Assembly: GCF_020042665.1 (NCBI RefSeq)
Contig: NZ_CP083376.1
Coordinates: forward strand, 1,462,001-1,526,000
DNA length: 64,000 nucleotides
Reading direction: 5' to 3'
Source: Pseudoxanthomonas sp. X-1
Lineage (GTDB): Bacteria; Pseudomonadota; Gammaproteobacteria; Xanthomonadales; Xanthomonadaceae
Positions 56,313 to 64,000 of the stretch are shown piece by piece (position 1 is the first letter of the stretch; the number at the start of each line of letters is the position of its first letter). The notes beneath the pieces are model-generated. The model saw nothing but the letters and a program-made list of their open reading frames with translations, did not search any database and was not told where the DNA came from. Made by a program: the position numbers and the translations under genes.

Positions 56313-58091
56313 CTAACCGACACGATCCACCGCCTGCTCCGGCACCGCAGTCCCCGCCCGCCACCCCGAAGCCGCCATCCCATCCAGCAGCGCCACCACC
56401 TGCGCGCGGTTGGCCAGCTCATGCACGGGCAGCACCAGCAGATCGCCTTCGCGTGCCCAGGCGAGCAGGCTGCGTGCGGCCTGCACCTCGTCGGGCTGCA
56501 GCTGCACGCGCTGCGGATCCAGGCCGTCGGCCAGAAGCTGTGCATGCATCAGCGCCGGTACCGCATCGGCATCACGACCGCGGGCATAACCCGGTAGCTC
56601 CTTGAGGATCACCTGCTCCGGCGCGTACGCCGCCGCGACATGCGCAACCGCGCGCAGGTCCTCGTCCTGGCGATTGCCGGCGTGGCCCAGCAGCAGCCCC
56701 AGCCGGCCGCCGCGGCGCGAAGCGTCGAGCGCATCGAGCAGGCTGCGCAGGCCTTCGGGATTGTGCGCATAGTCCACGACCACACGCGTGCTGCCGAACA
56801 TCCACTGCTGCAGCCTCCCGGGGTTGTCGTCCGGGTCTTGCCCGAAGCGCGCAAGCACCCGCGCGATGGTCGCCGGCGCGATGCCCAGCAGAGCGCCGGC
56901 CAGGGCGCCCGCCGCCAGATTGCCCAGGTTGTAGCGCGCGCGATCGCCTAGGCTCAGCGGCATCGCGGCCGTGGGGCCGAGGTCGTGTTCGACACCGGCC
57001 AGCGCCAGCCACAGATGCGCGTCGCGCACGCCGCAGGTGGGCTTGCCGAGCGCGCGATGCAGCCGCACCAGCGGCTGGTCGAAATCCAGCGCGAACCACG
57101 CCAGCGGACACGACAGGGCCGTGGACTGCGTGCGTAGGAAGGCATCGTCCGCATTGAGCACCAGATGCGCGCCCACGCCCACCGCGCGGGCCACGCTGAG
57201 CTTGACCTGCGCCAGCGTGTGCAGGTCATGCACGCCGAACTCGCCGAAGTGATCGTGCGCCACGTTGGTCACCACCGCCACATCGGCCTGTTCGACCGCC
57301 AGGCCGTGGCGCAGCAGGCCGCCGCGCGCGGTCTCCAGCACGGCGGCGCGGGCCTGGCCCTGGCGCAGCGCCTCGCGCGCGCCGGCCGGCCCGGAGAAGT
57401 CGCCGCTGTCCAGCGCCTGGCCCTGGAAGAACACGCCATCCGTGCAGCAGTACGCGGTGTCCCCGGCCTGCGCCTGGCACAGCGCGGCCAGCAGGCGCGT
57501 GGTCGTGGTCTTGCCATTGGAGCCGGTCACCAGCGCGGTCGGAATGCGATGCAGGCGCGGCCAGGGCACGTGCGCCGGATCGGGCAGCTCGTCGACGAAC
57601 CAGCTGCGCGCGCCGCTGCCGCTGCCCAGGGTCAGTTCGTCCTCGTCCAGCAGGAAGGGCAGGGCGCGGGCGCGGGCCTTGCGCTGCAGCGCGAGCAGCG
57701 TCGGCTGCGCTTCGGCCGCGGCGCTGGCCTGCAGCGTGCGCAAGCCCTGCACGATGTCCCAGGTGGCCGCATCGCCGGGCGCGTGCAGCGGCTCGGCCGG
57801 GCTGTCGCTGGCGATCCACCACGCCCAGATGTTCAGCGCGGTGGCGGTATGCAGCTGATCCAGCGGCGCGGAGAAGGCCAGCGTGGCGCCGCTGGCATGG
57901 CGGTGCCGATAGCGCGCGCCGGCCGGCCAGCCCAGTCGTGCCACGGCCTCGCGCACCAGCGCGTCCCAGCGCCGAAGCGCGTCCAGGTCGAACGCCTGCC
58001 CGGCCGCGCTTTCCAGCGCCGTGCCGGTGTCGGCGAAGTAGACGTTGGGACCGGTCAACCGGCGCGCCTGTCGGTAGGGCAGGACCTGCAT
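56313..58091 (-). CDS. Mur ligase family protein resembling cyanophycin synthetase without the ATP-grasp domain
   Basis: This 592-residue protein follows cphA by seven bases. Its N-terminus (LTGPNVYFADTGTALE) matches the CphA N-domain pattern, and the piece RALPFLLDEDELTLGSG parallels RGIPWLRLDTHSLIQFG of CphA. The protein then goes directly into a Mur-type ATPase: P-loop VTGSNGKTTTTR with Lys194, ETARGGLLRHGL, NVAHDHFGE and VVVDYAHNPEGLRSLLDAL. In CphA the P-loop lysine is residue 502, so about 310 residues covering the ATP-grasp domain are missing. CphA2 enzymes of cyanobacteria also lack a working ATP-grasp and polymerise beta-Asp-Arg dipeptides. An analogous role here is inferred, not shown. 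Confidence 0.85.
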   Translation of the reverse strand: MQVLPYRQARRLTGPNVYFADTGTALESAAGQAFDLDALRRWDALVREAVARLGWPAGARYRHRHASGATLAFSAPLDQLHTATALNIWAWWIASDSPAEPLHAPGDAATWDIVQGLRTLQASAAAEAQPTLLALQRKARARALPFLLDEDELTLGSGSGARSWFVDELPDPAHVPWPRLHRIPTALVTGSNGKTTTTRLLAALCQAQAGDTAYCCTDGVFFQGQALDSGDFSGPAGAREALRQGQARAAVLETARGGLLRHGLAVEQADVAVVTNVAHDHFGEFGVHDLHTLAQVKLSVARAVGVGAHLVLNADDAFLRTQSTALSCPLAWFALDFDQPLVRLHRALGKPTCGVRDAHLWLALAGVEHDLGPTAAMPLSLGDRARYNLGNLAAGALAGALLGIAPATIARVLARFGQDPDDNPGRLQQWMFGSTRVVVDYAHNPEGLRSLLDALDASRRGGRLGLLLGHAGNRQDEDLRAVAHVAAAYAPEQVILKELPGYARGRDADAVPALMHAQLLADGLDPQRVQLQPDEVQAARSLLAWAREGDLLVLPVHELANRAQVVALLDGMAASGWRAGTAVPEQAVDRVG

Positions 58092-58098
58092 GGTGGGC

Positions 58099-60870
58099 TC
58101 AGTCGGTCTCGCGGCGGAACACCAGACCCCGCGCGTCCTGCACCACGCCTTCGGGCAGCGCGTCGGGCGCCTCCTCGTCGTCCTGCGCGTGCGCGTTCCG
58201 TTGGACGGGCGAAGGCGCGGCGCTGCCCTCGGCGCGGAACTTGGTGATCTGCTTCCAGGTGCGGCTGAGCTGGTCGGCGAAGATCAGCACCAGATCGCCC
58301 GGCCGGCCCATGCGCAGCGCCGCGTCCACGGCCCGCTGCTCGTCGGGGATCAGTTCGATGGCCCCGGCGTCCACGCCCGCCGCGCGCAGGGCGCGGGCCA
58401 GGCGCTGCGGCACCTCGTCCTCGCCGCGTCCGCGCAGCGCGTCGTCGCGGCGCAGGATGTAGTGGTCGAACCGACCGGCCACCGCGCGGGCGACGGCGTC
58501 GATGTCGGTGTCGCGGCGATCGCCCGGCGCGCTCAGCACCACGATGCGCCGGCCGTCCACGTCCATGCGCCGCGCCAGGTCGGTCATGGTCGCCGCGGCA
58601 TGCGCGTTGTGCGCGTAGTCCATCAGCACCTTGAAGGGATGTTCCTCGAACAGGTTCAGCCTTCCCGGCGACTGGAAGAAGGTGCTGTCGAAAGTGCGCA
58701 GGCCCTGGCGGATCGCCTCGAGCCTGAATCCCAGCGCGAAGGCCATCGCCGCGGCGAACATCGCGTTGGCCACGTTGTGGACGGCGCGGCCCTCCAGCGT
58801 GGCCGGGATCAGGTGCGTCCACAGCAGCGGAATGTGCGTGCCCCTGTCGTAGAGCGTGATCATCTGGCCGTTGACGCCCTCCTCCAGCGCGCAGGCGCGG
58901 CCGCCGGCGCGGATATGCGCACGCACCAGCGCATGCGAGGGATTGGTGGTGACGTAGCAGACGCTGCGCGCCGGCGTGTAGGCCGACATGCGCAACACCA
59001 GCGGGTCGTCGGCGTTGAGCACCGCGCAGTCGCGCGCCACCTCGACCACGATGCGCTTGACCCGTGCCAGCTGCGCCAGCGTGTCCACGCCGCGCGCGCC
59101 GAGGTGATCGGCCGCGACGTTGAGCACCGCGCCCACGTCCACCTCCGGTACGCCTAGCCCGGCGCGCAGCAGGCCGCCGCGCGCGGTCTCGAGCAGGGCG
59201 ATGTCGATCTGCGGATCGCCCAGCACCATGCGCGCGGCGAGCGGGCCGGTCATGTCGCCCTCGACGGTGCGCTGGCCGTCGATGTACACCCCATCGGTGC
59301 TGGTCATGCCCGGCACGTGGCCAGCCATCTTGGCGATGTGCGCCAGCATGCGCACGGTGGTGGTCTTGCCGTTGGTGCCGGTCAGCGCGGCGATCGGCAC
59401 GCGCGACGGCGTGCCGGGCGGGAACAGCATGTCCAGCACCGGCCCGGCGACATCACGTGGGAGGCCCTCGCTGGGCGCCACGTGCATGCGCAGGCCGGGC
59501 GCGGCGTTGACCTCGCAGATCGCCCCGCCCACCTCGCGATGACTGCGCGCGATGTCCGGGCTGATGAAGTCCACCCCGGCCACGTCCAGGCCGATCGCGC
59601 GCACCGCGCGCACGGCCATGTCGCGGTTGTCGGGGTGGATCAGGTCGGTGACGTCGGTGGCGGTGCCGCCGGTGGACAGGTTGGCGGTGGCGCGCAGGTA
59701 CACCACCTCGCCTGCGGCCGGCACGCTGAAGTGGCCGTAGCCGACGCGTTCGAGCATGGCGTCGGCCTGTTCGTCCAGCTCCAGCTGGGTCAGCACCTTC
59801 TCGTGGCCGATGCCGCGGCGCGGATCGGCGTTGACCCGGTCGACCAGTTCGGCGATATCGGCCACGCCATCGCCGACCACATGGCCGGGCGTGCGCCGGG
59901 TGGCGGCGACCAGCGCGCCGTCCACCACCAGCAGGCGATGGTCGTCGCCGGCGATGTAGGTCTCCACGATCACCGAGCGTGCGTGTTCGCGCGCGGCCTC
60001 GAAGCCGGCGGCGATCTCCTCCGGGGTGGTCAGGTCGATGCCGATGCCGCGGCCGTGGTTGCCGTTGTAGGGCTTGGTGACCACCGCGCCGCCCAGGGCG
60101 CGCGCTGCGCGGACCGCGCCTTCCAGCGTGGTGACCAGGCGCTGCTGCGGCACCGGCAGGCCCAGTCCGGCCAGCAGGTGGTTGGTGGCCTCCTTGTCGC
60201 TGGCCAGCTCGACCGCCAGGTGCGGCGTGCGCCCGGTCAGGGTGGCCTGGATGCGCTGCTGGTAGCGGCCATGGCCGAACTGGATCAGCGAATGGGTGTC
60301 CAGCCGCAGCCACGGGATGCCGCGCGCCTGCGCCGCGGCGACCAGCGCAGCGGTGGACGGGCCCAGCGCGCGCCGCTGGGCGTAGAGGATGTAGTCGACC
60401 TTGGCGGTCTCCCAGTTCCAGCCATCGTCCGGCGAGGCGCCGCCGCGCAGCGGCGCGGGCAGCAGCGAGGTGAGCAGGCGCAGGGCCAGCTCGCCGGCGG
60501 CCAGGCCCTCCTCGCGCTGGGTGTAGGCGTAGACCACCCGGTCCAGGCCTGGCGGCGCGTCCTCGCCGGTCAGGGTGGCGCCGAAGCGCACGTCCTCGCC
60601 GGCCATGGCCTGCACCGCCAGCGCCATGTGCTGCAGGACTTCGCTCAGCGGCAGGCCATCGCCCGCGCGCAGGCGCGGGGCGAAGTCGTCGTGCGCGCCC
60701 AGGCCGGGCAGGGCAGCCAGCAGCGCCTCGGCGAAGTCCGTCCCCAGCCGGCCGCTGGGCCAGTCGCGCAGATCGCCCGGGTCCAGATCCAGCCGGATCA
60801 CCGGCGCGTGCGCGTAGATCGAGGGCCCCAGATAGACCGCGCGGTCGACGATGCGCATGGGCCGGCTCAT
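58099..60870 (-). CDS. cphA: Cyanophycin synthetase
   Basis: CphA makes the storage polymer of an aspartate backbone with arginine side chains. The 923-residue length is normal. The N-domain (RAVYLGPSIYAHAPVIRLDLD) is followed by an ATP-grasp domain (SDKEATNHLLAGLGLPVP; VVTKPYNGNHGRGIGIDL) that adds aspartate. The Mur ligase domain that adds arginine has ALTGTNGKTTTVR with Lys502, LLETARGGLLRAGLG and MDYAHNAHAAATM. The ATG at 60870 overlaps the cphB stop by four bases; Met5 is an alternative start. It is the central gene of a three-gene cluster. Confidence 0.96.
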   Translation of the reverse strand: MSRPMRIVDRAVYLGPSIYAHAPVIRLDLDPGDLRDWPSGRLGTDFAEALLAALPGLGAHDDFAPRLRAGDGLPLSEVLQHMALAVQAMAGEDVRFGATLTGEDAPPGLDRVVYAYTQREEGLAAGELALRLLTSLLPAPLRGGASPDDGWNWETAKVDYILYAQRRALGPSTAALVAAAQARGIPWLRLDTHSLIQFGHGRYQQRIQATLTGRTPHLAVELASDKEATNHLLAGLGLPVPQQRLVTTLEGAVRAARALGGAVVTKPYNGNHGRGIGIDLTTPEEIAAGFEAAREHARSVIVETYIAGDDHRLLVVDGALVAATRRTPGHVVGDGVADIAELVDRVNADPRRGIGHEKVLTQLELDEQADAMLERVGYGHFSVPAAGEVVYLRATANLSTGGTATDVTDLIHPDNRDMAVRAVRAIGLDVAGVDFISPDIARSHREVGGAICEVNAAPGLRMHVAPSEGLPRDVAGPVLDMLFPPGTPSRVPIAALTGTNGKTTTVRMLAHIAKMAGHVPGMTSTDGVYIDGQRTVEGDMTGPLAARMVLGDPQIDIALLETARGGLLRAGLGVPEVDVGAVLNVAADHLGARGVDTLAQLARVKRIVVEVARDCAVLNADDPLVLRMSAYTPARSVCYVTTNPSHALVRAHIRAGGRACALEEGVNGQMITLYDRGTHIPLLWTHLIPATLEGRAVHNVANAMFAAAMAFALGFRLEAIRQGLRTFDSTFFQSPGRLNLFEEHPFKVLMDYAHNAHAAATMTDLARRMDVDGRRIVVLSAPGDRRDTDIDAVARAVAGRFDHYILRRDDALRGRGEDEVPQRLARALRAAGVDAGAIELIPDEQRAVDAALRMGRPGDLVLIFADQLSRTWKQITKFRAEGSAAPSPVQRNAHAQDDEEAPDALPEGVVQDARGLVFRRETD

Positions 60871-61709
60871 GTCGGCGCCCGCGCCAGCGTGCCGGGCGAG
60901 GCCGTGCGCGTGGCCAGGTTGTAGGTGGCCCCGGCCAGCAGCAGATGCATCTTCAGGCCGAGCATGCACACCGGGTCGCGCTCGCTGGCCTCGGCCATGG
61001 ACGAGAATTCCAGTTCGCCCGCGTCGACCACCGTGACCGCGCCGGAGCCTTCCACTTCCAGCGTGTTGTCCGGGCCGATGAAGGCCGCGGTGTCCTCGTC
61101 CAGGCCGATGCCGATGGCGAAGGGGTTGTAGGCCAGCGCCGCCAGCAGCCGGCCCAGCCGGTCGCGCTGGCGGAAATGCTGGTCGATCACGAAGCGGTTG
61201 GTCAGCCCCAGGCCTGGCGCCAGGCGCACCGAATCGGCCTGCGGTGCGGCGCCTTCGCGGCCGAAGGCGATCATGTGCTCGGACAGGATCGCCGCCCCGG
61301 CGCTGGTGCCGCCGACCGGGATCCCGGCCGCGTTGCGCGCGCGGATCAGCTGCGCGGCCGGCGTGCCGCCCAGCAGCGTGGATAGCCGCAGCTGGTTGCC
61401 GCCGGTGAAGAAGATCGCGCTGGCCTGTTCGATCCGCGCCAGCCGCGTGCGGTCCTGGCCGTCGCGGCGCGTGCCGAAGTCCAGCACCTCCACCTGGCGC
61501 GCGCCGAGTTCGTCGAACAGCTGCTCGTAGCGCGGCCCGGCCTCGCGCGACTGGCTGGCCGTGGGGATCACCGCGATGCGCGCCGCCTTGCCCCCGGCCA
61601 GCGCCACGAAGCGGCGCAGGATGCGCGCATCGCGCCCCTTGTCCTCGGCCCCGCCGATCGGCACCAGCCAGCCCCGCGCCGCGCCTTCGGCCACCTTGCT
61701 CGGACACAT
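60867..61709 (-). CDS. cphB: Cyanophycinase
   Basis: Cyanophycinase is an S51-type serine exopeptidase that releases beta-Asp-Arg dipeptides from cyanophycin. The 280-residue product starts near GWLVPIGGAEDKG and has VGGTSAGAAILSEHMI with the catalytic serine at residue 136. FTGGNQLRLSTLLGGTPA and RFVIDQHFRQRDRLGRLLAAL are further family blocks. The start at 61709 removes a 49-residue basic, proline-rich upstream stretch with no family character. It has no signal peptide, so degradation is intracellular. It is the first gene of cphB-cphA-Mur ligase-like. Confidence 0.94.
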   Translation of the reverse strand: MCPSKVAEGAARGWLVPIGGAEDKGRDARILRRFVALAGGKAARIAVIPTASQSREAGPRYEQLFDELGARQVEVLDFGTRRDGQDRTRLARIEQASAIFFTGGNQLRLSTLLGGTPAAQLIRARNAAGIPVGGTSAGAAILSEHMIAFGREGAAPQADSVRLAPGLGLTNRFVIDQHFRQRDRLGRLLAALAYNPFAIGIGLDEDTAAFIGPDNTLEVEGSGAVTVVDAGELEFSSMAEASERDPVCMLGLKMHLLLAGATYNLATRTASPGTLARAPT

Positions 61710-61917: not shown

Positions 61918-61994
61918 GGCCCCGTAGCTCAGCTGGATAGAGCGTCCCCCTCCTAAGGGGAAGGTCGCCCGTTCGAATCGGGCCGGGGTCACCA
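61918..61994 (+). tRNA. tRNA-Arg (anticodon CCU)
   Basis: The 77-base cloverleaf has acceptor arms GGCCCCG and CGGGGTC (one GT pair), a D arm with AGCTCAGCTGGATAGAGC, and an anticodon stem TCCCC/GGGGA around the loop CTCCTAA, giving anticodon CCT. The T arm is GTTCGAATC and a CCA end is encoded. It reads AGG codons, which are rare in this genome. It lies alone between cphB and thrA. Confidence 0.96.
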
Positions 61995-62352: not shown

Positions 62353-64000
62353 ATGTCGTCGCCCGCAGCATCCGCCCCACCGCTGAAAACCGTCGCCCAC
62401 AAGTTCGGCGGCACCTCCGTGGCCGATGCCACGCGCTACCGCCACGTGGCCGACCTGCTGCTGGCGCGCGATGAGGACGAGCAGGTCACCGTGGTCTCGG
62501 CGATGAAGGGCGTGACCGATGCGCTGATCGACCTGGCCGGGCGTGCGGCCGGCAACCTGGCCGACTGGCGCGAGCGCTGGCACGAACTGCGCGCGCGCCA
62601 CCGCGGCGCGGCGGTGGCGCTGCTGGGCGAGGACTCCGGGGCGACGGTGGAATGGCTGGACGGGCAGTTCGACACGCTGGCCGAGGTGCTGCAGGCGCTG
62701 TCGGTGATCGGCGAGCTGCCGCGCGAGGTGCTCGAGCGCGTGCAGGGCCTGGGCGAGGTGTATTCGGCGCGGCTGCTGGGCGACCACCTGCGCAGCCGCG
62801 GCCAGGACTGCGCGGTGCTCGACGCGCGCGAGGTGCTGGTGGTCGACCGCGGCGAGCTGGGCGTGGACGTGGACTGGGAGACCAGCGCCCAGCGCCTGGC
62901 GCAGTGGCGCGCCAGCCACCCGGCGCGGCGCGTGGTGGTGACCGGCTTCGTCGCGCGCGACCGCGCCAACCGCATCACCACGCTGGGCCGCAACGGCAGC
63001 GACTACTCCGGGGCGATCTTCGCCGCGCTGTTCGACGCCGCCGAGCTGCACATCTGGACCGACGTGGACGGTGTGCTCTCGGCCGATCCGCGCGTGGTGC
63101 CCGAGGCGGTGCAACTGGAATCGCTCAGCTACGACGAGGCCTGCGAGCTGGCGTACTTCGGCGCCAAGGTCGTGCATCCGCAGACCATGTCGCCGGCGAT
63201 CGAGCGCGGCCTGCCGATCATCATCCGCAACACCTTCCAGCCCGAGCATCCGGGCACGCGCATCACCGCGCGCAAGGACGCGGCCGGACCGGTCAAGGGC
63301 CTGACGCTCTCGCCCGACCTGGCGGTGGTCAATCTGGAAGGCACCGGCCTGATCGGCGTGCCGGGCACGGCCGAGCGCGTGTTCTCGGCGCTGCGTGCCG
63401 AACGCGTGTCGGTGGTGATGATCTCGCAGGGCTCCTCGGAGCATTCGATCTGCTGCGTGGTCAAGTCGGTCGATGCCGCGCGTGCGCGCACCGCGCTGCT
63501 GACCGCCTTCGCCCACGAACTGGCGATCGGCCAGATCCAGCGCGTGCAGCTCACCGACGGGGTCAGCGTGCTGGCCGCGGTGGGCGATGGCATGGCCGGC
63601 CTGCCGGGCGTGGCGGCGCGGTTGTTCGAATCGCTGGGCCGCGCGCGGGTCAACATCCTGGCCATCGCCCAGGGCTCGTCGGAGCGCAACATCTCGGTGG
63701 CCATCGCCAGCAGCGATGCGACCAAGGCGCTGCGCGCGGCGCACGCCGGCTTCTGGCTGTCGCCGCAGACCTTCGCGGTCGGCGTGATCGGGCCGGGCCA
63801 TGTCGGCGGCGCGCTGCTGGATCAGCTGCGCGCGGCGCAGCCGCAGCTGCTGGGCAAGGCCAATGTCGATCTGCGCCTGCGCGCGATCGCTTCCTCGCAT
63901 CGCATGCTGCTGGCCGAACGCAGCATCGAGGACGACTGGCGCGGCGTCTTCGCCCAGGCGCGCGAGCCGCTGGACCTGGACCGCTTCACCGAACACCTGC
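62353..64000 (+). CDS. thrA: Bifunctional aspartokinase I/homoserine dehydrogenase I, C-terminus beyond window
   Basis: ThrA catalyses the first and third steps from aspartate to threonine and is usually inhibited by threonine. The ATG at 62353 follows a CGAGG site. The kinase domain has HKFGGTSVAD with Lys17, VTGFVARDRANRITTLGRNGSDYS and WTDVDGVLSADPR. ACT-type regulatory repeats follow (VSVVMISQGSSEHSI and VNILAIAQGSSERNISVAI). The homoserine dehydrogenase NAD-binding motif GVIGPGHVGGALL is near residue 478. The right edge of the window cuts the gene after 549 codons. A Thr/Ile leader peptide lies upstream. Confidence 0.95.
   Translation, partial: MSSPAASAPPLKTVAHKFGGTSVADATRYRHVADLLLARDEDEQVTVVSAMKGVTDALIDLAGRAAGNLADWRERWHELRARHRGAAVALLGEDSGATVEWLDGQFDTLAEVLQALSVIGELPREVLERVQGLGEVYSARLLGDHLRSRGQDCAVLDAREVLVVDRGELGVDVDWETSAQRLAQWRASHPARRVVVTGFVARDRANRITTLGRNGSDYSGAIFAALFDAAELHIWTDVDGVLSADPRVVPEAVQLESLSYDEACELAYFGAKVVHPQTMSPAIERGLPIIIRNTFQPEHPGTRITARKDAAGPVKGLTLSPDLAVVNLEGTGLIGVPGTAERVFSALRAERVSVVMISQGSSEHSICCVVKSVDAARARTALLTAFAHELAIGQIQRVQLTDGVSVLAAVGDGMAGLPGVAARLFESLGRARVNILAIAQGSSERNISVAIASSDATKALRAAHAGFWLSPQTFAVGVIGPGHVGGALLDQLRAAQPQLLGKANVDLRLRAIASSHRMLLAERSIEDDWRGVFAQAREPLDLDRFTEHL

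Follow-up and report, generated by a model that had tools for sequence, protein, structure and literature searches.

A CphA-like protein with an M domain and no ATP-grasp active site as a conserved neighbour of cyanophycin synthetase

The 64,000-nucleotide stretch of Pseudoxanthomonas sp. X-1 analysed here (contig NZ_CP083376.1, forward-strand positions 1,462,001 to 1,526,000; the window) belongs to a genome held in one contig of 4.5 Mb with a completeness rating of 100%, and carries a cyanophycin cluster of three genes: cphB for cyanophycinase, cphA for cyanophycin synthetase and a third gene whose product resembles CphA. We find that this third protein keeps a complete Mur ligase (M) domain with conserved active-site residues, has no ATP-grasp (G) site and belongs to a family that recurs beside cphA. 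We read it as a second ATP-dependent side-chain ligase of the M type, with cyanophycin or fragments of it as the substrate, a proposal in which our confidence is about evenly balanced.

Cyanophycin is reported to be made either by CphA1, which has both ligase sites, or by CphA2, which has a single site and is without the P-loop of the M domain (PMC10206079, PMC9427784). Within CphA1, the G domain is described as extending the backbone and the M domain as forming the side-chain bond (PMC9262961). No description of the third gene was found in searches of a library of open-access papers. The parts consulted of a survey of cphA1, cyanophycinase and dipeptidase genes make no mention of it (PMC10206079), and the Lysobacter capsici locus is reported as a two-gene cluster (PMC4742617).

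Domain organization of the third protein

The cluster and the parts of the third protein are as follows.

60867..61709, reverse strand: cphB, cyanophycinase (peptidase S51 family), ATG at 61709; PF03575 82 bits, TIGR02069 263 bits (cut-off 127)
60867..60870, reverse strand: four-base ATGA overlap of the cphB stop and the cphA start
58099..60870, reverse strand: cphA, cyanophycin synthetase of 923 residues with N, G (ATP-grasp) and M (Mur ligase) domains; TIGR02068 988 bits (cut-off 850)
56313..58091, reverse strand: third gene, 592 residues, CphA-like without the G catalytic region (N domain, G remnant, M domain)
57792..58091, reverse strand: third protein residues 1-100, CphA-type N domain (accepted from structure), strand-strand-helix-strand-strand-helix, no HxxEH motif
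57597..57779, reverse strand: residues about 105-165, remnant of the start of the G domain (hhalign)
56319..57551, reverse strand: residues 181-591, M domain
M-site residues: P-loop GSNGKTT 190-196, T217, E253, D280-H281, K297, R426, H443 and putative donor-side loop 498-506

The tight spacing described in the initial annotation is borne out by these coordinates: cphB and cphA share the ATGA at 60870-60867, and the ATG of the third gene lies 7 bases beyond the cphA stop. The third protein, which shares 95% identity with a protein of Pseudoxanthomonas winnipegensis that bears the name Mur ligase, matches Mur_ligase_M at residues 188-325 and Mur_ligase_C at 433-554. It aligns with the cyanophycin synthetase model TIGR02068 at profile positions 477-858 only (293.7 bits, under the cut-off of 850) and scores 95.5 bits against the murE model, under the cut-off of 257.3. 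Scans with Pfam and curated models return no ATP-grasp family match.

The N domain has no Pfam match, and profile support for it is weak: residues 1-105 align with a broad CphA N-domain profile at P 0.004 and a probability of 8%, and residues 1-180 with CphA 1-240 at an E-value of 2.3e-4 and a probability of 44%, the clearest part being the G remnant. We nevertheless accept a CphA-type N domain from the predicted structure, because the alignment of the AlphaFold model (mean predicted local distance difference test score, pLDDT, 92) with CphA1 begins as early as residue 4, opposite CphA1 residue 1. The comparison with CphA1 called for earlier thus indicates that the N and M domains match in fold and arrangement, over 405 residues at 3.2 A for 7wae_C and 549 residues at 4.4 A for 7lg5_A. 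The proposal of an N domain and a complete Mur ligase domain with no ATP-grasp part holds for the domains themselves and is refined at their junction, where residues of about 106-162 map onto window CphA 146-203, so that the G domain survives as roughly its first 50 residues.

The linker between N and M domains carries additions in some relatives. In-frame insertions of about 150-190 residues with repeat-like flanking peptides occur in five of the 35 third genes among the fetched loci (L042, L043, L046, L056 and L073); P0022 and P0056 are likewise insertion-bearing, and DUF559 is found in both examples scanned (P0046 and P0073). Among the matches listed, 28 of 120 homologues exceed 700 residues.

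Conservation of the M site

We compared 47 third-type rows, which contain at least one protein twice (the L039 row is P0011), with 36 CphA rows and five rows from the second genes of tandem cphA pairs; the five insertion-bearing proteins were excluded from the residue counts. Thirteen positions are invariant in all 47 third-type rows (K194, T217, E253, H281, K297, N391, R426, D440, H443, N444, R474, R504 and G505), and D280 is kept in 46. The conserved set includes the counterparts of TeCphA1 Lys499, Thr522, Glu558, Arg731 and His748. D280-H281 correspond to D585/H586 of SuCphA1, substitution of which is reported to inactivate the M site (PMC9262961).

On our reading, the third enzyme would be an active, free-standing M enzyme of the CphA type that works as the M domain of CphA1 does: ATP would serve to activate a carboxylate by phosphorylation, and the amino group of an amino acid would then be joined to it. 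The likeliest acceptor would be the side-chain carboxylate of Asp, either in cyanophycin itself or in a piece of the polymer that the N domain holds in place, and the donor would be arginine or a related amino acid. Domain make-up, the kept M-site residues, the missing G site and the conserved operon are computed results; ligase activity, cyanophycin as acceptor and the nature of the donor are inferred. Since there is no ATP-grasp site, the protein cannot lengthen the backbone; it would load or finish side chains beside CphA.

Several observations weigh against this reading. The adenine-stacking Phe692 of TeCphA1 aligns, by our own offset, with Tyr or His in the third family. G237 is present in all 47 third-type rows, where CphA has Ser (32/36) or Ala (4/36), and the loop leading into R504-G505-R506 has at least two extra residues in 47/47 third-type rows versus 0/41 CphA rows. 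Position 502 within it is Tyr or Phe in 45 third-type rows and His in two; the same column in the CphA rows holds His four times, Phe once and no Tyr. By analogy with MurE, we presume that loop 498-506 lies on the amino-acid donor side. Because this loop, along with G237, is distinct in the third family, its donor or acceptor may differ somewhat from that of CphA. N-domain glutamates 85 and 88, common in relatives, are Ala and Ile in the window's third protein, which means that a polymer-binding role of this helix may not extend to the whole family. Finally, the partner CphA has an M P-loop and Asp-His pair of its own, which makes a simple duplication of that step redundant.

The same redundancy, together with the loss of G and the retention of the N domain and the N-M arrangement, would suit a non-catalytic role, in which the protein adjusts how CphA assembles or keeps hold of the polymer. 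We consider such a role improbable, given that the strong constraint on ATP-site and catalytic residues would be needless in a scaffold.

Contrast with CphA2

The initial annotation modelled the third protein on a CphA2 with a non-functional ATP-grasp domain. This description of CphA2 is reversed: it is the P-loop and lid of the M domain that CphA2 is reported to lack, which abolishes condensation of the Arg side chain (PMC9427784). As these elements are lost and the G domain makes the backbone bond, the site remaining in CphA2 is the G site. Both proteins are CphA paralogues that have lost one ligase site and have an N domain without the peptidase motif, but the third protein lacks the G site and keeps the P-loop GSNGKTT and Mur_ligase_C.

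Two PDB entries, 7ta5 (629 residues) and 8fxh (642 residues), listed under the names Glutathione synthase and RimK domain protein, are presumably CphA2. They match the window CphA at query positions 170-561 and 169-497, mainly its G region, and are absent from the 19 matches of the third protein. It is therefore very improbable that the third enzyme is a CphA2-like dipeptide ligase that rebuilds cyanophycin from beta-Asp-Arg, even though its operon commonly includes cyanophycinase, whose product is that dipeptide. We reject dipeptide polymerization as the leading idea, since CphA2 acts through G without an M P-loop and the third protein has the M site and not the G site. The proposed cycle of making, breaking and directly rebuilding the polymer does not follow, because the third protein is the mirror image of CphA2. 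What stands of the earlier interpretation is a CphA-family paralogue tied to cyanophycin and lacking the ATP-grasp part; the rebuilding of dipeptides does not.

Ancestry of the third family

A quick maximum-likelihood tree of M domains was built from 67 selected rows, including 24 of the 47 third-type rows plus L103 and 29 of the 36 CphA rows. It is rooted on distant outgroups, and its branches carry Shimodaira-Hasegawa-like approximate likelihood ratio (SH-aLRT) support only, without bootstrap. The 25 third-type rows form one group (SH-aLRT 94), and CphA together with five second genes of tandem pairs forms a separate group (SH-aLRT 93). A branch with SH-aLRT 99 splits six Mur ligase rows from 61 CphA and third-type rows, two actinobacterial rows included. 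Clustering with a Mur ligase family unrelated to CphA, which would have told against the original proposal, is not what this tree recovers, and the kinship with CphA stands.

The third gene thus looks like an old CphA-type M lineage, sister to the M domains of CphA. We rejected a recent or decayed duplicate of the neighbouring cphA, as the third family forms its own clade beside the CphAs. CphA1 (TIGR02068; PDB 7LG5 and 7WAE) shares with the third protein the N/M fold and arrangement and the key documented M-site residues, but differs in having the ATP-grasp catalytic region, the N-domain C-HxxEH motif, a shorter donor-side loop and no G237, and falls in the separate sister clade. MurE and other Mur ligases share the Mur M and C domains and the acyl-phosphate ligase fold; from these the third protein is set apart by a score under the curated cut-off, a separate tree branch and the CphA N domain at its N-terminal end.

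Distribution and gene linkage

By our own count, a third-type match of at least 438 bits is found in 66 of 297 Lysobacteraceae genomes, with a cphA-type match beside it in 64 of them. In one of these 64, G228, the cphA-type match adjoins the N-terminal piece of the third gene, on another contig. In the remaining two of the 66, G142 and G240, the third gene starts less than 600 bases from the contig start, so a neighbouring cphA would fall outside the contig. G114 has only a fragment of the third gene, at a contig edge. Six listed Lysobacteraceae genomes have a cphA-type match and no third gene; they comprise tandem CphAs (L075-L077), a divergent cphA (L074), a truncated cphA (L078) and a contig end (G288). 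Nine of 18 sampled genomes of the window's own genus carry the third gene.

We fetched 40 Lysobacteraceae loci, 35 of which hold the third gene, and thereby carried out the synteny survey proposed at the outset. The order cphB-cphA-third gene recurs on a single strand in 34 of the 35, the exception being L052, where no cphB was found, and the arrangement therefore exceeds chance. The spacing from cphA to the third gene ranges from -41 to 266 bases, by our own choice of starts. On a tree of 50 CphAs, in which Lysobacteraceae are represented by a selection of loci, the 21 partners of a third gene need two state changes, below all 500 shuffles; L074, L078 and L143 fall in or next to the partner clade without having the gene.

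Outside the family, a survey of 369 genomes of the class found seven with a near-full-length third gene, all beside cphA, and nine others with a cphA-type M match of at least 164 bits and no third gene. Among the matches listed in a scan of genome contigs, the third gene appears in Plesiocystis pacifica SIR-1 (Myxococcota), an Acidobacteria metagenome-assembled genome (MAG), a Lysobacterales MAG and, cut by the contig start, L103; the 80 loci listed are mainly CphAs and other Mur ligases. Of ten loci outside the family (L103 excluded), all have an adjacent cphA, six a recognizable cphB and five iadA, the gene for a beta-aspartyl peptidase. Twenty-two records match, and the four with one place covering at least 80% of the query, plasmid records in each case, all have the order cyanophycinase, cphA, third gene: Shinella zoogloeoides ATCC 19623, Roseateles sp. 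XES5 (a record marked unverified) and two Ruegeria strains. RefSeq names the third gene in these records "Mur ligase family protein". The trio thus recurs in several phyla, from Lysobacteraceae and other gammaproteobacteria to Myxococcota and alphaproteobacterial plasmids. None of 152 pattern matches in viral contigs is a relative.

Three genomes of the same class with the cphA-third pair (L185, L186 and L187) are AT-rich (GC content 0.31-0.35) and about 2 Mb in size, and no cphB was found within the 16 kb fetched from each.

This linkage bears on whether the third enzyme applies M chemistry to a target other than cyanophycin, or uses a different amino acid, to give a new Asp-based or other pseudopeptide. 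The remodelled donor-side loop, the uniform G237 and the old split from CphA are all in keeping with a different product, but cphA is a constant companion of the third gene, often along with cphB and iadA, across gammaproteobacteria, Myxococcota, plasmids of alphaproteobacteria and the Acidobacteria MAG, which argues against it. We regard such a product as unlikely, though the best placed of the alternatives to a side-chain ligase acting on cyanophycin.

Pathway context

The gene iadA lies in 22 of the 35 Lysobacteraceae third-gene loci and in four of 50 fetched loci counted without the third gene, a comparison in which flank lengths differ; two of these four are also Lysobacteraceae (L078 and L131). 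Two examples score 374 and 418 bits against TIGR01975 (cut-off 331). Because iadA shares the locus so often, beta-Asp-Arg has a hydrolytic fate there. The window's genome has no iadA above the cut-off and three matches above the cut-offs to Asparaginase_2, the family of IaaA type. In principle, then, the third enzyme is not needed for either the synthesis or the degradation of cyanophycin. An all-against-all comparison of open reading frames (ORFs) for a conserved fourth gene was crowded with shadow ORFs, and iadA was the sole neighbour it resolved.

Upstream of cphB in the window, on the opposite strand, lie a tRNA-Arg gene with a CCT anticodon (61918-61994, forward strand) and an aspartokinase/homoserine-dehydrogenase-type gene (62353-63999, forward strand).

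The N domain of the partner CphA

The N domain of the window CphA (60526-60813, codons of about 20-115) has lost the primer-making peptidase motif C-x19-HxxEH, with the Cys, the first His and the Glu gone. It shows 26 departures from residues that are near-invariant in 35 relatives, each of which has 0-2. With these peptidase residues lost, the window CphA is predicted to be primer-dependent. The motif is kept in 35 of the 36 Lysobacteraceae CphA partners of a third gene, the window's counted among them, and also in the partners at L181-L187, L101, L102 and L104. Given how many partners keep it, we rejected the idea that the third gene compensates in general for a lost primer-making N domain.

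A related proposal is that the third enzyme joins free Asp with Arg or another amino acid to give beta-Asp-X, which CphA would then use to prime or to build the polymer. In its favour, the two substrates required by an M site are an acceptor with a carboxylate and a donor with an amino group, a slow joining of Asp to Arg has been put forward as the first primer-free step (PMC9262961), and the window CphA is itself without the primer-making motif. However, a shortage of primer fails to explain the spread of a gene whose partners mostly keep that motif, and the minimal CphA primer, reported to be (beta-Asp-Arg)-Asp (PMC9262961), needs a backbone bond as well. We consider this role unlikely, slightly more so than a different product.

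Division of labour in other CphA systems

Twelve tandem cphA pairs (L109, L111, L114, L117, L119, L122, L124, L125, L129, L133, L137 and L146), eleven betaproteobacterial by title or genus and one titled Gammaproteobacteria, offer a parallel. By simple patterns, the M P-loop is found in none of the first genes and in all twelve second genes, while the G P-loop pattern and the N-domain motif are found in 8/12 and 11/12 first genes and in none of the second. These pairs look like a split synthetase and would be a precedent for division of labour. In Ralstonia, the second gene goes by the name CphA'. Like the third gene, second tandem genes have an M P-loop, lack the G P-loop pattern and lie beside a cphA in all twelve cases. 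They differ in length (ORFs of 856-919 residues), in keeping the G region and in having a partner without an M P-loop, and the five tested fall outside the third-type clade. The CphA partner of the third gene keeps both ligase domains, unlike the first gene of the tandem pairs.

Two actinobacterial N-M proteins (L123 9859-11583 and L128 9723-12023) also have a CphA-like N-terminal start, an M domain and no ATP-grasp match, and adjoin cphA; their orientation to it is convergent, and they occupy a separate branch of the tree. The Terrabacter N-M protein has a long C-terminal extension. Two Deinococcus plasmid proteins (L192 4702-7218 and L193 4687-7186) are CphA-like, with a G part that seems degraded and an M part that seems retained; that of L193 is annotated as two pieces and lies near cphA, isoaspartyl peptidase and cyanophycinase genes.

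Implications for cyanophycin metabolism

A conserved M-only enzyme completes the set beside CphA1 and CphA2, and predicts side-chain chemistry uncoupled from backbone growth, a step that is not known to be assigned there. Should the third enzyme alter side-chain composition, it would be relevant to what bacterial cyanophycin actually consists of and to engineered polymers; should it finish the polymer ends, it would bear on priming and chain length. More tentatively, these G-less, M-only CphA paralogues may form a third class of cyanophycin enzyme, long conserved as working partners of a single CphA clade; they would add an amino acid different from the arginine used by CphA, or decorate the polymer or its fragments. 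We hold this broader view to be possible, with less confidence than the ligase function itself. If it is true, the bacteria that carry the trio would make an uncharacterised variant of cyanophycin or a soluble Asp-based product.

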